Part shown: in pieces, positions 772 to 9,477 of the stretch
Layout: each line of letters opens with the position of its first letter
Numbering within the stretch: the stretch's first letter is position 1
Virus record (IMG/VR): IMGVR_UViG_3300047461_000359
Span: 1 to 22,339 of that record
Reading direction: 5' to 3' (one strand)
Source: a virus
DNA length: 22,339 bases
Notes under the pieces: generated by a model
What the model was told of the DNA's origin: nothing
The model's input: the letters and a program-made list of their open reading frames with translations, nothing else
The model's database searches: none
Translations under genes and position numbers: made by a program

Positions 772-2180
772 TAAAATTCTCCGGCGCCGTCACGGGCAAT
801 TTCCAAAATCATATTATGTCCCAGTTTATCTATATCATGTCTAATACCTGTTACAATATAAACACCCGAAACTTTGTCATCAAATAAATTTTCATATTCA
901 GGATTACTTTGCCCTTTATCACCAACACTAGGATAATTAAACTTGATTAATCTACCAACTTCAATGTCTGTTTTACCTGGAACTGTAATTTCATATTTTA
1001 AAACATCCAATTCAGCCAAAGAGGACTCTCGATAGCATACCGAGGATACTTGTGAGATGTCAAACGCATTTTTATTACCAAATAATCCAGATGCCCCCGC
1101 TTTATATTGTCTTTTACTTAGAGGGTCTGCAAACATACCCTTAGGGATAGGATTTATATTTCCTATATGTTTAAAACTATCATAGTTTATATCCAAAACA
1201 CTTTTGTCCTGTTCACGCCTAGCCGGTTGTTCAGGTGTGTAATCAAACTTAATATTGTAAATATCTTTCTTTGTCCAGTCATAACCATGTGTGACACTGC
1301 CGTAATATCCAGAACTTTGGTTTTCAATTTGGTCAAAATGTCTAGGATATTCCATTTTACTAACAGTTGTCATTTTATTAGAAATAAATGGTGAAGTATA
1401 TTTAAAATTACTTGAACGTTTATCCTGTGAATCTATTGTAATTTCATCTAAATTACTAACATAAACATATTCATCATACAATGTTTTTGTATCTTTTTGT
1501 TCCTGTGTGAGAGCAGTTATAGAAGTAAAATAATGTCCTTTGTTAGATTCAAAGAAAAGTGTGTTTGGTAATTTGTATTCATTACCAACAGTATTTTTTG
1601 CAACGTAGTTCATACATTTAAAGGGTGACCAATAATTGGATACAAATTCTAAGTTGTTTGAAAAATGTGGTGTATCTAGAATAGTTATTGAGGGATCTCC
1701 TGAATCTTTAAAATCAGGAGTCATAACACGCGGCTCGACGATATATTCAGAAAACAATTGTAAAGCGATTTCTTCGGTTGAACCATTAAATTTTTCACTT
1801 AGTCTAGTTATATTATCCTTAATACCTTCCATTGACATAAACTGAATTGTATAAAATTGTTCTCTATCACTGTTCAGGAATCTATCAGTTACGGCATAAA
1901 TTGCAAATGTTTTGTGTATAACATTTTCAGGTGTATCATTAAGTGCAGGTGTTCTAATTTTAAATGTAATTGTATCTCTGCCTAGGATAGGACTATTAGT
2001 TAGTAGATTAACGGCATCACTCACAACAACATGTCCAAATATGCAGGGTGTATGGATACTTTCGTGTAAAGTAATTTCAAGGAAAAAGTTTTGTAAATCT
2101 ATTGATTCCTTAATGCCTGTATTAAGATAGATAGATTCTATCCTAACATCACCCGCTGATTGTTGTAAATTTTGTGCCAT
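771..2180 (-). CDS. 27: Baseplate hub protein gp27-like
   Basis: 469 residues, somewhat longer than T4 gp27 (391). It lies directly upstream of gene 5 and downstream of gene 53, the expected partners. The N-terminal part (VRIESIYLNTG, LQNFFLEITLHESIHTPCIFGHV) is of the type seen in hub proteins with duplicated tail-tube-like barrels, and the C-terminal part ends in VSGVYIVTGIRHDIDKLGHNMILEIARDG. In T4, the gp27 trimer makes the torus that adapts the sixfold tube to the threefold gp5 needle. The ATG sits in TAATG with the gene 53 stop. The assignment comes from position plus recognisable hub-like sequence; the fold was not computed. Confidence 0.8.
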   Translation of the reverse strand: MAQNLQQSAGDVRIESIYLNTGIKESIDLQNFFLEITLHESIHTPCIFGHVVVSDAVNLLTNSPILGRDTITFKIRTPALNDTPENVIHKTFAIYAVTDRFLNSDREQFYTIQFMSMEGIKDNITRLSEKFNGSTEEIALQLFSEYIVEPRVMTPDFKDSGDPSITILDTPHFSNNLEFVSNYWSPFKCMNYVAKNTVGNEYKLPNTLFFESNKGHYFTSITALTQEQKDTKTLYDEYVYVSNLDEITIDSQDKRSSNFKYTSPFISNKMTTVSKMEYPRHFDQIENQSSGYYGSVTHGYDWTKKDIYNIKFDYTPEQPARREQDKSVLDINYDSFKHIGNINPIPKGMFADPLSKRQYKAGASGLFGNKNAFDISQVSSVCYRESSLAELDVLKYEITVPGKTDIEVGRLIKFNYPSVGDKGQSNPEYENLFDDKVSGVYIVTGIRHDIDKLGHNMILEIARDGAGEF

Positions 2181-2707
2181 TATTCGTTAATCAATTGTTT
2201 AAATTCAGTGATAAAATCATTTAAATATCTAGGTTGCAAAACTTTAATGTTTTGCCTAGAATCATTCTCAAATCTTTCATGCTCTATGTGTGTTACCTCA
2301 AACATTTCACCGGCTGTAATAAGAGCAGCATTGTAATCAGAACAAATTAAAGGACTATCATATAATGCAAAATGATGTGTTGCATTGGCGTTTCCTGCGC
2401 CATATTTCTTTTCAACAAGAGCGTCAAGTTGTTCCTCTGTATAATACCATTCTAAGTAAGGATCTATAATATTATTAATTAACAATATGACCCAATGATA
2501 TTTTGCATTATTATAAAGGAAGAACGAAATATCCTCGGGTCTTTCTCCCGACTTAATTGTATATTCCTCAAGGAATGCTTCATTTACAATAAATGAATCT
2601 TTAGGGGCAACTCTACGAAATATATCTGTTAACGTAATTAAGGATTCGTTACCATCATTTTTTTCATCAATCTTATATAAAATTTTAGGAAAGTGTTCAA
2701 AAAACAT
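2180..2707 (-). CDS. 53: Baseplate wedge protein gp53
   Basis: 175 residues from the ATG at 2707, which lies one base after the gene 48 stop. An upstream TTG at 2725 would add six residues, but the ATG start (MFFEHFPKILYKI) fits the family and has an AAGG about 8 bases upstream. The central part (SGERPEDISFFLYNNAKYHWVILLINNIIDP) is typical of the gp53 wedge family. T4 gp53 (196 residues) joins wedges around the hub, and its middle region resembles a LysM-type fold. The gene lies in the leftward baseplate operon 48-53-27-5. Confidence 0.9.
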   Translation of the reverse strand: MFFEHFPKILYKIDEKNDGNESLITLTDIFRRVAPKDSFIVNEAFLEEYTIKSGERPEDISFFLYNNAKYHWVILLINNIIDPYLEWYYTEEQLDALVEKKYGAGNANATHHFALYDSPLICSDYNAALITAGEMFEVTHIEHERFENDSRQNIKVLQPRYLNDFITEFKQLINE

Positions 2708-2708
2708 T

Positions 2709-3941
2709 TTAGTAACCTTGCTCAATTCTATCTTTTGTCATAAGTTCAAGCTCTTTAAATGCTAATTGCATTGTAATTTCTGAAGGTGCGCCGCCTACAT
2801 CCTTAAATGTAGTAAAAGAGCCGCCAGCGCCATAATCCACTTTCATATCTGTTAATGCACATGTAGATATTTTATTGACAAATCTATTTTCGGCGCCCCT
2901 ATATCTAAATTCTATCTGAAACTCGGAAGGATATGTAAGGAAGAAATCACTTGTATCTCTGCCTGAGTGCATATGATATTTGAATGTATCAATGATTTGC
3001 ATAACATTTTCTAATTCATTTCTATTTCTCGGAGCGAACTTCCATTCAAAAGCAAAGTCTCGAAAGTTCATAGTTTTAAAGAGTTGCTCTTTAAAAGGAT
3101 TTACAACCTTTTTAGTGAGTGCTTGAACCGTGCCGCCAAAATCTACATTTAATCCAATTTGTTTAAAAATATCAGAAACACCTATCAAACCTCGACCTAT
3201 TGCCTCACCTGCTCCCCCAGCACTTTTTAAAAATTCGTCTAAACTTGTGGTACCCGGTCCCACTTGTGTTATAGCACCGCCTATTGTTCCCAATTCAGTA
3301 TCCTGCCATTGTGCGCCATACTTAGTGCTAAGAGACTGAGGAATATAAAGTTGAATAATTGTATTTGTTTTAATAAGTCCCGTTCTAGAATTGAGTGCAT
3401 TGGCACCTAGGGCAAATCCACCTAAACCCACAGCCGTTTTTACTAATCCGCTAGCGCCGCCGCGGCCCAAAGCCTTGCCGGTCGCCAAGGCCGCCACACT
3501 ACCCGCAGTTCCTAATGCGGCAGCCTGAGCAGTAGCCACAGAAAATAATCCTGCTCCCTGTTCTGCATTTACTCTATTTTCACTACTATCTGAGTATAAA
3601 GCACCTGGAGCCTCACCGCTTCTAATAGCTTTTGCTTCATTAGAAGGTATTCTTTCTAGAATATTAAACACCATAGAGTGTGGTTGAATTTCGGAATCAA
3701 TGTCCTGAGGATACCGATATGTTCTTTTTTGTTTACGCCGTTTGGCACGTTCAATTCTTTCTTCAACATTTAGGTCACCATTGCCTTGGGGAACTTCTTT
3801 TATAACAGAATTGGCTTGGGATGCCTCTTCATTACTAGATGAGACTGCATCCTTATTTTGGCTAATCTCATCGTTTCTGTTTGGACCTCCCCGAGAATTT
3901 TTTCTTCTCTGTCTTCGTTGTCCTGGTGTCTCTTGTGCCAT
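2709..3941 (-). CDS. 48: Baseplate tail-tube cap protein gp48
   Basis: 410 residues against 364 in T4. The C-terminal half (MNFRDFAFEWKFAPRNRNELENVMQIIDTFKYHM, YPSEFQIEFRYRG, FTTFKDVGGAPSEITMQLAFKELELMTKDRIEQGY) is characteristic of gp48/gp54 proteins, which carry a tail-tube-like fold and cap the central baseplate hole so that tube polymerisation can start. Two regions stand out. The first is a very polar, basic N-terminus (residues ~1-95, with QRRQRRKNSRG and RAKRRKQKRTYRYP). The second is an Ala/Gly-rich hydrophobic stretch (~128-182). It is the first gene of the leftward late operon, with a late promoter 35 bases upstream. A gp54 identity is the alternative. Confidence 0.8.
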   Translation of the reverse strand: MAQETPGQRRQRRKNSRGGPNRNDEISQNKDAVSSSNEEASQANSVIKEVPQGNGDLNVEERIERAKRRKQKRTYRYPQDIDSEIQPHSMVFNILERIPSNEAKAIRSGEAPGALYSDSSENRVNAEQGAGLFSVATAQAAALGTAGSVAALATGKALGRGGASGLVKTAVGLGGFALGANALNSRTGLIKTNTIIQLYIPQSLSTKYGAQWQDTELGTIGGAITQVGPGTTSLDEFLKSAGGAGEAIGRGLIGVSDIFKQIGLNVDFGGTVQALTKKVVNPFKEQLFKTMNFRDFAFEWKFAPRNRNELENVMQIIDTFKYHMHSGRDTSDFFLTYPSEFQIEFRYRGAENRFVNKISTCALTDMKVDYGAGGSFTTFKDVGGAPSEITMQLAFKELELMTKDRIEQGY

Positions 3942-3975: not shown

Positions 3976-3983
3976 TATTTATA
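3976..3983 (-). promoter_or_regulatory. T4-type late promoter for the 48-53-27-5 operon
   Basis: An exact TATAAATA octamer on the minus strand, ending 35 bases before the gene 48 ATG. In T4-like phages this octamer at about -13 to -6 is the whole late promoter, read by host RNA polymerase with gp55, gp33 and gp45. Transcription would start near 3970. A gp33 homologue is encoded in this window. The octamer overlaps the first base of the oppositely oriented gene 4 ATG. Confidence 0.8.
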
Positions 3984-4426
3984 TGACTTATACCAAAAAT
4001 TTACACCAAGGGCGTTTTATTCCTCGCAATCCTAAAAAGTATCGCGGTGACCCTACTAATATTATTTATCGCTCTAGTTATGAGCTTAAATTTATGAATT
4101 GGTGTGATATGAATGAAGACCTTCAAGAATGGGGTTCCGAAGAAATTGCAATACCTTATAGGTCACCCCTTGATAATAAAATACACAGATACTTTCCTGA
4201 CTTTTATATAAAGGTAGGTAAGAAGAAGTATCTAATTGAAATAAAACCAGAACGTTTTACAAAAGAACCCACAATACCTAAAAGAAGAACAAAACGTTTT
4301 ATCAACGAGGTAAAACAATGGGGCGTGAACCTAGCAAAGTGGGAAAGTGCCAAAGAGTTTTGTATTGACCAGGGCTGGGAGTTTAAAATTATTACAGAGA
4401 AAGAATTAGGCATCTCGTATAAATAG
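3983..4426 (+). CDS. 4: Head completion protein gp4 (PD-(D/E)XK nuclease-like fold)
   Basis: 147 residues, matching T4 gp4 (about 150), a head-completion protein needed before tail joining. The sequence shows the layout of a PD-(D/E)XK nuclease: E34 in RSSYELKFMNW, D73 in YFPDFYI, then E86-I-K88 in KKYLIEIKP. In T4-like phages gp4 has this nuclease-like signature, but its exact activity in head filling is not settled. It is the first gene of the rightward structural block. No clear Shine-Dalgarno sequence precedes the ATG. The last codons contain a late promoter octamer for the next gene. Confidence 0.88.
   Translation: MTYTKNLHQGRFIPRNPKKYRGDPTNIIYRSSYELKFMNWCDMNEDLQEWGSEEIAIPYRSPLDNKIHRYFPDFYIKVGKKKYLIEIKPERFTKEPTIPKRRTKRFINEVKQWGVNLAKWESAKEFCIDQGWEFKIITEKELGISYK
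4418..4425 (+). promoter_or_regulatory. T4-type late promoter at the end of gene 4
   Basis: An exact TATAAATA overlaps the gene 4 stop codon (TAG at 4424-4426). With the usual spacing, transcription would start at about 4431. That is the A of the next gene's ATG, so the transcript would have essentially no leader. The octamer also encodes the final codons (YK, stop) of gp4, so a chance origin cannot be excluded. Confidence 0.65.
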
Positions 4427-4430
4427 TCGT

Positions 4431-5003
4431 ATGGCTAATCCATTTGAAACAATACGACTAAACGCAGGCGACACAAAACGTTCTGTAAATTGGTATCAAG
4501 ATCAAATTAGAAAACTTGCAGGAGGTGTTAATGCACCTGGACAAGTATTTGCATCTGACTTGGGTGAAACTTCCGGACGTCCAGAAGTAGGTAGCATGTA
4601 TATGTTTGTATATGACCCTAAGACAAAAGCAAAGTTGCCCTACTATGACAGATTCCCCCTTGTATTGCCCTATGACAATGCCACAGGAGGGTTCTACGGG
4701 CTTAACTTACATTACTTGCCTTATATGTTAAGAGCAAAACTACTAGGTGCATTAATTGAAACAAAAGATTCAAGAACCATTGGTCCGGATACACAAATGA
4801 GATATAACTGGAATGTTTTGCAAAGTGCATCACGTTTTCCAGGAGTTCAGCCTACAGTGAAACGTTATTTGTTTAACCATATAAGATCAAGAATTTTAAG
4901 AGTCAACCCCGAGAATTGGCAGACAGCTATTATGTTACCAGTTGAAAAATTTGAGGGTGCTGGCAAACAAACAGTATTTAACGATTCAATGGCGGCAATC
5001 TAA
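4431..5003 (+). CDS. Conserved T4-like virion structural protein (unassigned number)
   Basis: 190 residues. The middle carries a striking conserved-looking block (YYDRFPLVLPYDNATGGFYG followed by LNLHYLPYMLRAKLLGAL, residues ~72-107), a pattern I associate with structural proteins of marine and other large T4-like myoviruses. No enzyme motif is seen. It lies between gene 4 and a tail-tube-fold gene in a late-transcribed block, so a role in the neck, DNA end or tail completion (position of T4 genes 2 or 3) is plausible but not shown. Its stop overlaps the next start (TAATG). Confidence 0.6.
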   Translation: MANPFETIRLNAGDTKRSVNWYQDQIRKLAGGVNAPGQVFASDLGETSGRPEVGSMYMFVYDPKTKAKLPYYDRFPLVLPYDNATGGFYGLNLHYLPYMLRAKLLGALIETKDSRTIGPDTQMRYNWNVLQSASRFPGVQPTVKRYLFNHIRSRILRVNPENWQTAIMLPVEKFEGAGKQTVFNDSMAAI

Positions 5004-5620
5004 TGGCAGATTCATACTTCAAGTTTAATGATTTACTTGCAAAAGTAAGAAAAGAAGATTTATCACGATCAGGTAGATTTGAGATAGAAATAAACGGTCC
5101 CCCTGGTCTTGGTTATGATAGACATGTTTCTATTTTATGTGAGGAAGCCGCGGTTCCAGGAATACTTATACCTAGTGCGCCTATAAAAATTGGTAACTGG
5201 ACTGAATTCCGTGCCCAGAGTTTGGAATATCTAGGGGAATCAGCATCCTTTACTTTTTATTGTGATGCTAATTGGGACGTTCGTGCATACTTTGAGGATT
5301 GGATAGGTAGTGCAACTGTAGATCCTTTGTCCAAGGAAGTAGGCTTTTATAATGATTATACCGGTAGAATAACAATATACACATTGGATAGGGGCGATAG
5401 AAGAACTGGGGAATGGACACTTGTAGATGCATTTCCTCGGACCATTGCATTAACACCTTTATCAGCATCCAATGAAGGAATCAATCGTGTAAACGTTATA
5501 ATGCAATACAAATATTGGAAGTCCGATGGACTGCCGGTTGATAGTAAATACAAAGGACTTAAACGTTTTCTTAACTTTAAAGATTTGGATCTTAGGGAAA
5601 TACTTAGAAGAAATTTATAA
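5003..5620 (+). CDS. Tail-tube-fold protein, possible gp54 tube initiator
   Basis: 205 residues. Features resemble the T4 gp19/gp54/gp48 barrel family: an N-terminal RSGRFEIEI strand, a CEEAAVPGILIPSAPIKIGNWTEFRAQSLEY-type segment comparable to the gp19 'ATALPAG' region, DWIGSATVDP, and a C-terminal GINRVNVIMQYKYW strand like the gp19 'FEVTLALDYW' end. The length lies between gp19 (163) and gp54 (320). The neighbouring hub and chaperone genes favour a baseplate-proximal tube initiator (gp54) over the major tube protein, which normally sits beside sheath gene 18. It is followed by a 15-base gap with a good AGGAG site for the next gene. Confidence 0.6.
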   Translation: MADSYFKFNDLLAKVRKEDLSRSGRFEIEINGPPGLGYDRHVSILCEEAAVPGILIPSAPIKIGNWTEFRAQSLEYLGESASFTFYCDANWDVRAYFEDWIGSATVDPLSKEVGFYNDYTGRITIYTLDRGDRRTGEWTLVDAFPRTIALTPLSASNEGINRVNVIMQYKYWKSDGLPVDSKYKGLKRFLNFKDLDLREILRRNL

Positions 5621-5635
5621 TTAGGAGTAAATATT

Positions 5636-6334
5636 ATGCTACCTCAGGTAGATGTACCTTTAATTGAAATCGAGATGTTTTCTACAAAAGATATCGTTAA
5701 TTTCAGACCCTTCCTTGTAAAGGAAGAAAAAATGCTTGTCATGGCTAGTGAAACTAATGACATTAATGATATGATGAAAGCTACACAGCAGATCATAACG
5801 AATTGTTCTTTTGGAAAAATTGAGGGAGATAAACTTCCCTTATTTGAACTACAATATATTTTTCTAAAACTTAGATCTGCATCCATATCTAATGCAATAG
5901 ATTTAAATATGGTTTGTGGTGATTGCGGAACACAATATAATCATCAGTTAAATTTAGAAGATTTAGAACTTACGCTAGATGAGGATCACAAGAATCCAAT
6001 AAAACTTTCCAAGACTATGGCAGTGGAAATGAAATATCCTGATGCCAAGGAAATGGCTAAGTTATTGGAAGGTGACAACAATGAAGCGATATACGCACTT
6101 GTAGCAAAAAGTATTAAAACAATTTATGACGATGATGAAGTTATTGAGTGTGATGAAATATCAGAAACAGAGATGTATCAATGGGTAGAGAACTTACCAG
6201 CAACAAACTTTGAAAATATCAGAGAGTTTTTTGAAACAATGCCTGCTCTTGAACATCTTATTGAATTTAAATGTGCTAACTGTGGGAAGGAAAATTATCT
6301 TAATTTGAACGGTTATGTAAATTTTTTCGTATAA
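5636..6334 (+). CDS. 26: Baseplate hub assembly protein, gp26/gp51 type (zero-frame product)
   Basis: 232 residues with the pattern of the T4 baseplate-hub chaperone family (gp26/gp51, 'T4_baseplate'). There is an acidic helical middle and two CxxC pairs (C94/C97 in CGDCGTQYNH and C213/C216 in CANCGKENY), which probably form one zinc-ribbon-like site. It lies directly before the probable tape measure gene, the usual place for tail assembly chaperones. The start has AGGAG 9 bases upstream. The final codons contain a slippery heptamer that allows a -1 extension. The gp26 versus gp51 name is uncertain; membership in the hub-assembly family is fairly secure. Confidence 0.78.
   Translation: MLPQVDVPLIEIEMFSTKDIVNFRPFLVKEEKMLVMASETNDINDMMKATQQIITNCSFGKIEGDKLPLFELQYIFLKLRSASISNAIDLNMVCGDCGTQYNHQLNLEDLELTLDEDHKNPIKLSKTMAVEMKYPDAKEMAKLLEGDNNEAIYALVAKSIKTIYDDDEVIECDEISETEMYQWVENLPATNFENIREFFETMPALEHLIEFKCANCGKENYLNLNGYVNFFV
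6322..6328 (+). promoter_or_regulatory. Programmed -1 frameshift slippery site (T TTT TTC)
   Basis: The zero-frame codons AAT-TTT-TTC at the end of the hub-chaperone gene contain TTTTTTC in the canonical X XXY YYZ register. Both tRNAs can re-pair after slipping back one base. The zero frame stops two codons later (GTA TAA). The -1 frame stays open for 59 more codons with protein-like sequence. This mirrors the conserved frameshift of chaperone genes placed before tape measure genes in many tailed phages (lambda G/GT and Mu are the established examples). Confidence 0.72.
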
Positions 6335-6507
6335 ACCTCTCCCATGAATCGTTAGAAAACTTTTTTAAAACCAATTTTTTATTAATGCAGGAACATAAAT
6401 ACTCATTAACAGAAATAGAAAATTGGTTGCCTTGGGAGAGGACCGTTTACATTGCAATGCTAATAGAACATCTTAAGAAAAAAGCCGAAAAGAATAAAAA
6501 TGGATAG
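6328..6507 (+). CDS. -1 frame extension of the hub chaperone (gp26-type fusion tail)
   Basis: This is an open frame of 59 codons entered from the slippery site. It contains LSHESLENFFKTNFLLMQEH, then YSLTEIENWLPWERTVYIAML, then a basic end (HLKKKAEKNKNG). The 'YSLTEIENxxPWER' pattern looks conserved, and it begins upstream of the only internal ATG, so it is unlikely to be an independent gene using that ATG. Fusion would give a protein of about 290 residues (231 zero-frame residues plus 59). The frame overlaps the tape measure ATG by eight bases (ATGGATAG). No gene otherwise explains 6335-6499. Confidence 0.72.
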   Translation, partial: RINLSHESLENFFKTNFLLMQEHKYSLTEIENWLPWERTVYIAMLIEHLKKKAEKNKNG

Positions 6508-7918
6508 AGCAGTTAGTTTAACAAAAAGATTTTTAGGTGTAGATGAAAGTGTAAAAGGCTTTGGCGCGGTTGCAAAGCAGGCATTACGTCCTTCAACTCT
6601 TTTCGGCACAGGCACTTCTGTAGGGTCAGCAAGGGCATCAATGCCAGGTGCAACTCCACAAACTACACAAGCGGCAAGCAATGTTACAATACCTGAAGAT
6701 CCGACGGAAAGTTTAATCGCGGAAGAAATATCCTCTCTTAATAAAAATCTCGAACAAAATATTAGAGCTCTTGATAATACCCTCGAAGCAAATGTTAAGT
6801 TAATGTCAAGGGACGTTGCCTTTTTAACAAGGCAAATTGCTGACCAAGCAAATGATATGGATTTGAATCCCGACAGCCCAACAAAACGTCAAATTGACGA
6901 TTTGATTGAAGAACAGGAAGCCACAACAAGAGCTATATTGAATATGAATGGCATGGGCGGTATGATGGGCGGATTTCCTATGGGAGGTAGACGTCCTGGC
7001 TTTTTTGGTCGTAATAAAACAGGGCGCACCGTGGCGAAGGCAGGAGGTGCCGCTGGCATGGGCGCGGGCGCAAATGCTCTTAAAGGAGCAACACAAGCAA
7101 ACCTTCCTAAGGGTACCAAATTAAATTCAGCCGGAAGATTAGTTGATGCAAAATCAGGTAAATTTGTAAAAAATCCTGCTGGACAGACACAGACAAAGAT
7201 AAACCAAAATATTCAGAATAAAGTAAAGAAAAAAGTTGGTTTGAAAATAGGTGCTAAACTTGCAACTAGAGGTGCTTTGGCAGCAACAGGTGTAGGTGCA
7301 GTTGCAAGTGCAGGTTTACTTGCATATGATGTGGGTGAGGCTGTCTTCAGTAAGGGTGCAAGAGCTGAATATACTATGGCAAACCCAATGGCATCTGAAG
7401 AAGATAAACAGGAAGCATTGGATTATCTAATAAAAGAGGATCCTACAAGATTGGGTGTTGAAGGTCTCGAGAATATTACACCTGAAAAACGTATGGACTT
7501 CCTATCTGCACAGGACGAAAATCCAGAACTGACAAGTGAACAATTCAATACACAAATGATAGAAGAGCAGGGCGGTCCAACAGATAAACAATTGGCTGAT
7601 TTACAGTCCAAAGTAACCGACCAAACTTCTGGCTTCTTCAATAGGAAAAGCAATGACCTTGAAGAAGCACAGGCAATGATTAAAAGTTCCGGTATGGAAG
7701 GCCAAGTTGTTGCTAGGGAAACAAACAATGGTATTGAACTTGAAAGAGTTACAGAAGATACAACTAAAGGTATGGATGGAGCAGGGCAAACACCTCCGAT
7801 AGTAGTAAATGCTCCTCAAGCGGCGCAGGCACCTCAACCTGACATTGTTGTAACATTACCTAAAACTATTTTGTCGCAAAATCCGTCAGCACGAAAATTT
7901 ATTGCCTCAACATTCTAA
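6500..7918 (+). CDS. Probable tape measure / baseplate hub-tail length protein (gp29 position)
   Basis: 472 residues. Regions in order: a low-complexity start; a predicted coiled coil around residues 72-120 (EEISSLNKNLEQNIRALDNTLEANVKLMSRD pattern); a Gly/Met-rich segment (~150-170, MNGMGGMMGGFPMGG); a basic stretch; a hydrophobic Ala/Gly segment (~250-280) that could insert in a membrane; and an acidic, helical C-terminal half. These features, and the position right after a frameshifting chaperone, fit a tail-length ruler such as T4 gp29 (590 residues), though it is shorter. The last bases overlap the stop of the convergent radical SAM gene. Identity is inferred mainly from context. Confidence 0.6.
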   Translation: MDRAVSLTKRFLGVDESVKGFGAVAKQALRPSTLFGTGTSVGSARASMPGATPQTTQAASNVTIPEDPTESLIAEEISSLNKNLEQNIRALDNTLEANVKLMSRDVAFLTRQIADQANDMDLNPDSPTKRQIDDLIEEQEATTRAILNMNGMGGMMGGFPMGGRRPGFFGRNKTGRTVAKAGGAAGMGAGANALKGATQANLPKGTKLNSAGRLVDAKSGKFVKNPAGQTQTKINQNIQNKVKKKVGLKIGAKLATRGALAATGVGAVASAGLLAYDVGEAVFSKGARAEYTMANPMASEEDKQEALDYLIKEDPTRLGVEGLENITPEKRMDFLSAQDENPELTSEQFNTQMIEEQGGPTDKQLADLQSKVTDQTSGFFNRKSNDLEEAQAMIKSSGMEGQVVARETNNGIELERVTEDTTKGMDGAGQTPPIVVNAPQAAQAPQPDIVVTLPKTILSQNPSARKFIASTF

Positions 7919-9477
7919 CTTAGTTTTTTCTTTTTATATTCTTCTACAAACTTGTGCGATTCATTCACGCCCAGTGTAATATCGCCATGCTCTCTATAGG
8001 ATTTGTGAAGGTCCTCGTAGGACATACCTGCATTTTGAAAAGTATGAAAGTGCCAAACGTGAGGATATTGGTCATGCCATAAATCTCTATTGGATTCATA
8101 TTTGGCATATATTTTATGTGCTTCCCAAATATCCATAGTATCATGCTCCCACACTGTAAATGTAGGATGTGACAGACGATTCCAAATTGAATCTCGAACT
8201 CGGGGAGACAAATTTTCTCCCAGTCCCTCTTTTGAGGCACCAAGTTTTTCCATTGTTGTTTCTCTAAATAATCCTGATTCCTCCCATGTTTCTTCAAACT
8301 CTGAATATGTATTTCTTAGATTGGAATCAGTTATTTTATGGTGAATTTGTAAAGGAAAAATATTCATTGATGGGTGTTTCATATTATCGAACATCCACTT
8401 TACACCGGCATCCAATGTTTCCTCAGTTTCGTGCGGCAAGCCGATAATATAACTAAACGTTGTTCTAAATTTGCCAAGTGTTTTCAAGAAATAATCTTGT
8501 GCCTCAAGAATTCCTTCTTTTAATTTTTCGGGATTCATACCCTTACCAATGGACTTAGCAGAAGCATGATTAAAAGATTCAATACCATAGTAATGACCCC
8601 ACAATCCCATCTTTGCCATATGTTCCCAGTCTTGTGGGCGTGCCGCAACAAGGTCTGCCCTCACATAGCCCTGTATGTTAGTCTCAAAGGGTAGTTTATC
8701 AATAACATTACCCGCGGCTTCTAATACTGTATGTTCTGCGTTTGTTGTTTCGTCAGCACAACTGTAATCAGTAATACCCCAATATTCATAATTCCGTAAG
8801 AGTTCATCATACAAGTTATCCATACATCTGGAAGTCTTACCCTTATATCCAATAATATTGAAGTAACAAAACTTACATTTAAACTTACACCCACGAGTAA
8901 GTTCGAGTGTTAAGTTTTCACCTGGTTGTATATGGTCACGTTTCTCATACTTAACCTGTAAATCATCCATTGGATATGACGGGTGAGAAGTATCACAGTT
9001 TACAAACTGATAATTCCTACCCATCATTTCAAATTTTTCAATTACAACACTACTAGGATTTCCTGTAAGTTTTTTAAGGAGTTCTATGATAGCATGTTCT
9101 GCATATCCAGCAAGGTGAAAATCTGCAGGAAGCATGTGACTTGTCATCAACATTTTACCACCAGCAATTGTAGAAACATGCGGATATGTTTTCTTTAGCC
9201 AGTGCATAAAATCAACAATATCTTGTTCCTTAGTAAGCAGGCTGAATACAGTGCTAACACCAATGAATACTGTATCTTTTCTTATTCTTTGTTTGTAAAA
9301 TTCTTTTAGTTCGTCAATCGACCATGCAGGCATAAAGTCCAGGACTTCAATATCCCAACCATGCTCCCTGAGATGGGAAGCAATTCTATGAGCACCAGAC
9401 GCTCTTTTTACCGAGATGTGATTGACCGCCTCATGTATTGGCGTTTCAATCCATCCTCCCATAATGATACCGTGCAT
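7915..9477 (-). CDS. B12-binding-type radical SAM protein
   Basis: 520 residues. The N-terminal ~140 residues look like a cobalamin-binding Rossmann domain (GAHRIASHLREHGWDIEVLDF, GVSTVFSL, STIAGGKML, LAGYAEHAI). The radical SAM cluster motif follows as CKFKCKFC (C197, C201, C204, CX3CX2C) in ELTRGCKFKCKFCYFN. Later elements (YGIESF, YIIGLPHETEET) fit a TIM-barrel radical SAM core, and the C-terminal ~130 residues are unassigned. Such enzymes often methylate or rearrange unactivated carbons; the substrate here is unknown. The TAGGA site before the ATG lies just past the gp32 terminator T-tract, so expression may depend on readthrough. It overlaps the convergent tape measure gene by four bases. 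Confidence 0.85.
   Translation of the reverse strand: MHGIIMGGWIETPIHEAVNHISVKRASGAHRIASHLREHGWDIEVLDFMPAWSIDELKEFYKQRIRKDTVFIGVSTVFSLLTKEQDIVDFMHWLKKTYPHVSTIAGGKMLMTSHMLPADFHLAGYAEHAIIELLKKLTGNPSSVVIEKFEMMGRNYQFVNCDTSHPSYPMDDLQVKYEKRDHIQPGENLTLELTRGCKFKCKFCYFNIIGYKGKTSRCMDNLYDELLRNYEYWGITDYSCADETTNAEHTVLEAAGNVIDKLPFETNIQGYVRADLVAARPQDWEHMAKMGLWGHYYGIESFNHASAKSIGKGMNPEKLKEGILEAQDYFLKTLGKFRTTFSYIIGLPHETEETLDAGVKWMFDNMKHPSMNIFPLQIHHKITDSNLRNTYSEFEETWEESGLFRETTMEKLGASKEGLGENLSPRVRDSIWNRLSHPTFTVWEHDTMDIWEAHKIYAKYESNRDLWHDQYPHVWHFHTFQNAGMSYEDLHKSYREHGDITLGVNESHKFVEEYKKKKLS

Follow-up and report, generated by a model that had tools for sequence, protein, structure and literature searches.

Tail assembly chaperones of a marine T4-like myovirus are probably encoded through a helix-stimulated programmed −1 ribosomal frameshift

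Introduction

The tail assembly chaperones of the lambda G/GT class are made as two products in a fixed ratio, and both are required for the formation of tails but are absent from virions. A three-part frameshift signal is found in dnaX of E. coli, which combines an upstream SD-like site, the heptamer A AAA AAG and a downstream stem. Frameshifts of this kind are known from many tailed phages. In lambda, ribosomes that slip by −1 shortly before the end of the short gene, which lies just ahead of the tape measure gene, make a longer form with a C-terminal T domain, and in the proposed model the part common to both forms binds the tape measure protein, with the tube subunits bound by the extra part (PMC5009743). 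The same major recoding review lists T4 as the exception to the tail-chaperone frameshift (PMC5009743), and T4 gp51 has been described as essential, with its function called unknown (PMC3004832). From citing papers it appears that T4-like phages have already been described as possessing a short and a long chaperone gene (Vladimirov, Gautam and Davidson 2022, cited via PMC10885494) and that poly-T slip sites have been noted in T4-like TAC-N genes (the same work, cited via PMC12846349), and the PRFect main text makes no mention of a frameshift gene of the gp26 family.

Here we describe a locus in a stretch of viral DNA of 22,339 nucleotides (IMG/VR record IMGVR_UViG_3300047461_000359, positions 1 to 22,339; in the following called the window). 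As for lambda gpG/gpGT, a −1 slip near the end of a short gene would give a short form and a long form bearing a T-like domain, but the locus differs from lambda in its protein family (PF12322), in the slip site T TTT TTC and in a conserved helix that spans a long range in many of the members. Both T4 proteins, gp26 and gp51, belong to PF12322 too, and gp51 carries the C-terminal domain that is seen here in the −1 frame; unlike in the window, the two T4 proteins come from separate genes on opposite strands and no frameshift is involved. With dnaX the locus shares the layout of SD-like site, heptamer and stem, whereas the heptamer is T TTT TTN, the loop is much longer and the SD-like part is optional, being weak in the window itself.

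Results and Discussion

The short-frame gene (5636..6334, plus strand) encodes a gp26-family tail assembly chaperone (TAC-N) of 232 aa with two CxxC motifs, and its reading frame ends at the stop codon TAA at 6332..6334. In profile searches the product matched PF12322 over residues 10–231 (E 5e-58, 196.7 bits with a curated cut-off of 24.5) and phrog_150 over residues 2–231 (E 6e-61). AlphaFold models the zero-frame protein with high confidence (pLDDT 91), and among the chains ranked highest by Foldseek the model's top VIA-align match is 2OB9, the tail assembly chaperone of HK97, with Z 7.1 and an rmsd of 3.4 over 83 of 107 residues, followed by a next-best Z of 5.0; the value of 7.1 falls below the VIA-align guideline of Z 8. 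Foldseek alone gave no significant match of this model in the PDB, the HK97 chaperone included, and searching the PDB by sequence with profiles of gp26 and gp51 returned nothing credible. The predicted structure supports a TAC-like fold of the N-terminal domain but does not prove it. The first-pass annotation had spoken of a hub-chaperone gene, and while its assignment to a gp26/gp51-type family holds, a more fitting name than hub protein gene is tail assembly chaperone gene, with a short and a long product.

The gene upstream (5003-5620) matches the tail tube family phrog_45 (E 2e-26). Downstream, the gene at 6500..7918 (plus strand, 472 aa) itself showed no match to PHROG; the equivalent gene in relatives matches tape-measure PHROGs (L014, 3e-8; L028, 9e-11; L065, 2e-5; R11Z, 1e-8), and we regard it as a tape measure candidate by position and relatives. 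It is convergent with a minus-strand gene at 7915-9477 with a 4-base overlap at the ends, the latter encoding a radical SAM protein with a weak match to a B12-binding domain that lies below the cut-off of that domain. Further upstream, at 3983-4423, a head closure protein with a TnsA-like endonuclease domain was found (PF08722, E 7e-21; phrog_218, E 8e-60).

The zero frame ends with AAT TTT TTC GTA TAA (6320-6334), and reading it places the slippery heptamer T TTT TTC at 6322..6328 on the plus strand, in register and two codons ahead of the stop, just as first described. We collected 262 homologous loci by their gp26 protein and not by the slip site, with a few annotated phages picked through the −1 peptide. 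Aligning the homologues, as had been suggested, revealed T TTT TTN in frame near the stop in 256 of the 262 loci (206 unique regions), with the second frame kept as well. Among the unique regions the last base is C in 163, T in 29, A in 12 and G in 2, and the heptamer lies exactly two codons before the stop in 176 of them; T TTT TTN is also present in more distant relatives. As a control, other Phe-Phe pairs in these genes were counted in an earlier collection of 58 loci sharing less than 60% identity, and just 3/52 were slippery in form; codon usage gives a chance of about 10^-38 for the slip site, an optimistic figure as it assumes independent loci. In E. coli, which may not be the host of this phage, T TTT TTC is slippery to a modest degree, a point that speaks against the frameshift reading. 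The exceptions are Ackermannviridae-type loci and Vibrio D524, which show [AC]TT TTC instead of the heptamer and retain the −1 domain; they may use a slip on T TTC or another mechanism. Loci with [AC]TT TTC and no XXXYYYZ heptamer are L013, L099, L100, L101 and L104 (Ackermannviridae), L103 (Vibrio D524) and L268-L285, and the gp26 gene end of the Kuttervirus and Limestonevirus type reads RATT TTC ATY TAA.

The second frame is always the −1 frame in the loci that were read. In the window it is open from 6322 to 6504 and closes with TAG at 6505-6507, and the extension after the slip (6328..6507, plus strand) comprises 59 residues, in agreement with the length first reported. The fusion would therefore indeed have 231 + 59 = 290 residues. 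The stop overlaps the ATG at 6500 of the next gene, so that the described ending over the tape measure start is correct as regards the overlap, with the identity of the tape measure gene staying that of a candidate. The −1 peptide, previously called conserved-looking, matches phrog_634 (baseplate hub assembly catalyst/gp51) with E 3e-24 and aligns with the C-termini of RB43 and T4 gp51. It also matches the C-terminal end of phrog_150 (positions 231–281), from which we conclude that this family includes proteins with both halves already fused. In the window the PF12322 and phrog_634 domains are both present but in two frames, and they would form one polypeptide only with the predicted frameshift. 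Independent pairs of relatives showed the bias expected for coding positions, with differences concentrated at the third positions of −1 codons: downstream of the common internal Met the counts are 407 vs 189 and 71 (p 2e-48), and upstream of it 222 vs 111 and 64 (p 2e-20). By this pattern the −1 frame is under coding selection and is predicted to be translated as a continuation of gp26.

Folding and covariation point to a putative stimulatory helix of 9 bp on the plus strand, with the 5' arm CCTCTCCCA at 6336..6344, 7 nt after the heptamer, and the 3' arm TGGGAGAGG at 6433..6441 within the codons for a conserved PWER motif. The loop has 88 nt, and the whole region folds with an MFE of -31.5 kcal/mol (z -4.8). 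Compared with synonymous shuffles, the 126 nt past the slip site gave a mean z of -2.03 in 91 loci and -4.9 in the window, whereas control windows of the same genes gave about -0.5 (p 2e-16 for the difference). Over 70 relatives, 87.9% of the helix cells are paired versus 83.5% in shuffles, and the covariation score is 0.159 versus 0.102 +/- 0.007, a value reached by 0/500 shuffles. One pair linking two wobble positions is C-G in 28 sequences and U-A in 25, and the wobble–wobble association persists among loci with identical peptides (Fisher p 1e-8; permutation < 1 in 2000). A tree-based sign test on independent pairs gave one direction only, about 4 to 0 per wobble pair, with low power, and for this reason a likelihood-ratio test for correlated evolution on the gp26 protein tree was used, which yielded p 3e-6 and 2e-8 for the two wobble–wobble pairs versus 0.71 and 0.054 for crossed controls. 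RNAalifold found no consensus (0.0 kcal/mol) in the large groups of downstream regions, which is probably due to differing inner partners and the long loop; the helix was derived from direct pairing and per-sequence folding, not from RNAalifold.

Across 194 loci the mean pairing probability is highest 7–15 nt past the heptamer, and pairing is predicted with a long-range partner in 78 loci, with a local one in 78 and with an intermediate one in 23, while 15 have none. As control windows pair at the same place in 133/194, the argument rests on where the peak lies, on the z-scores and on covariation, and not on the presence of pairing as such. The first-pass annotation had proposed to look for a stimulatory hairpin 5–9 bases downstream, and a structure does begin at 7 nt, but instead of a simple local hairpin, which was not found within the first 40 nt of the window, it is a long-range helix whose stem emerges only in folds of at least about 113 nt. 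Upstream, an SD-like sequence ending about 9 nt before the heptamer is present in about half of the loci, exceeding synonymous resampling (p 4e-14), while the site of the window itself is weak. We consider it reasonably likely, with some reservation, that the frameshift signal contains a long-range helix whose 5' arm has a fixed position after the slip site and whose 3' arm, about 90 nt off in the PWER codons, is swapped between lineages for the partner of a local hairpin; covariation at synonymous sites suggests that the short-to-long chaperone ratio is being held by selection across marine T4-like phages. No prior description of such an exchangeable long-range helix was found in the open-access literature.

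Could the two frames be expressed in another way? The gp51 part might be a separate small protein, started at ATG 6385 inside the −1 frame or by termination–reinitiation at the gp26 stop, and public records of P-HM2, S-PM2, Mosig and RHph_I9 do contain a separate gp51 gene. The overlap of the gp26 stop with an ATG in 10/194 loci also fits this idea, which we nevertheless find improbable. In the window no start codon precedes ATG 6385 within the first 21 codons of the −1 frame, which is conserved as protein about 20 codons ahead of the internal Met, and a −1-frame start codon upstream of the heptamer is absent from 182/194 loci, the window among them. A strong ribosome site at the common internal Met was found in none of the 168 loci having that Met, and a separate gp51 leaves both the invariant T TTT TTN and the covarying downstream helix unexplained. 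In other lineages, with an ATG within the first nine −1 codons (78/194 loci, the window not being one of them) or overlapping the stop, a separate gp51 peptide or additional reinitiation is possible.

It is less probable still that the T run causes RNA polymerase to slip and that some of the transcripts, carrying an extra base, encode the fusion with no ribosomal frameshift involved. In some loci the homopolymer at the site does reach 8 T or more, but the run of the window has only 6 T, which is short for bacterial transcriptional slippage; moreover, the run is held in codon register, the conserved helix lies at ribosome spacing and about half of the loci have the SD-like site ahead of the run. 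The homopolymer at the break might also raise the suspicion of an assembly error or a decayed gene, an explanation of negligible probability that is refuted by the comparison of loci, since 256 loci, taken from independently made assemblies and also from cultured phages, share this junction, and the sequence to either side of it is under coding selection.

The best-supported reading is the one originally proposed, a programmed −1 frameshift in a T4-like gene of the gp26/gp51 type, and based on the sequence comparisons we assign a probability of roughly 0.93 to the tail assembly chaperones of this marine T4-like myovirus being encoded by a helix-stimulated −1 ribosomal frameshift as a short protein and a 290-residue fusion. 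Because of the slip site, the −1 coding frame, the covarying helix and the structural match to the HK97 chaperone, it is probably a frameshift of the lambda G/GT chaperone type. We infer that most ribosomes would terminate at 6334 and release the short chaperone of 232 aa, and that a minority, pausing at the RNA helix that starts 7 nt past the heptamer, would shift to the −1 frame at T TTT TTC and complete the 290-residue fusion bearing the gp51 (T-like) domain. A low frequency of slippage would thereby make the short chaperone the major and the long chaperone the minor product. By analogy to lambda gpG/gpGT, binding of the tape measure protein may fall to the shared part and recruitment of tube subunits to the T-like part.

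To take T4 itself, gp26 (208 aa) covers phrog_150 only to position 235, while gp51 (249 aa) reaches the end of that family profile and additionally matches phrog_634. T4 is thus predicted to make the same pair from two genes, with gp26 as the short and gp51 as the long form. The long proteins of Konradin, RB43 and PSTCR6 resemble T4 gp51 in covering phrog_150 to its end and matching phrog_634. Homologues with the frames fused or separately translated had been named as the finding that would speak against a frameshift; a short gene together with a long fused gene was seen in T4, RB43, Konradin and PSTCR6, where it replaces the frameshift, whereas nearly all of the collected homologous loci keep the slip site together with the second frame, and the one internal start shared by most of them is without a strong ribosome site. 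In RB43 (1934-3227 of locus L008) the long gene (gp51) lies directly before the short gene (gp26) with an 8-base overlap, the arrangement expected after a tandem duplication. Aeh1 and vibriophage R11Z, from the same family as T4, retain the frameshift form, and in Aeromonas phage Aeh1 (about 3190-3370 of locus L098) the gp51 domain follows T TTT TTC in the −1 frame at the end of gene 26. The natural inference is that one frameshifting gene may have been replaced by a short and a long gene.

It has been reported that gp51 is missing in Aeh1 and that cyanophage gp51 looked truncated (PMC3037559), and the frameshift form explains both observations. In P-HM2 (L006), S-PM2 (L011), Mosig (L007) and RHph_I9 (L015) gp51 is annotated as a separate gene of 30–60 residues with differing starts, and these annotations look like truncated calls of the frameshift extension.

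Conclusion

In summary, relatives of T4, some of them in its own family like Aeh1 and R11Z, keep the frameshift, and T4 and RB43 use two genes. Annotations of this locus should be amended to show the fusion. The exchangeable helix offers a natural set for studying the evolution of frameshift stimulators, and T4 gp51 gains a concrete and testable role as the long form of the chaperone.
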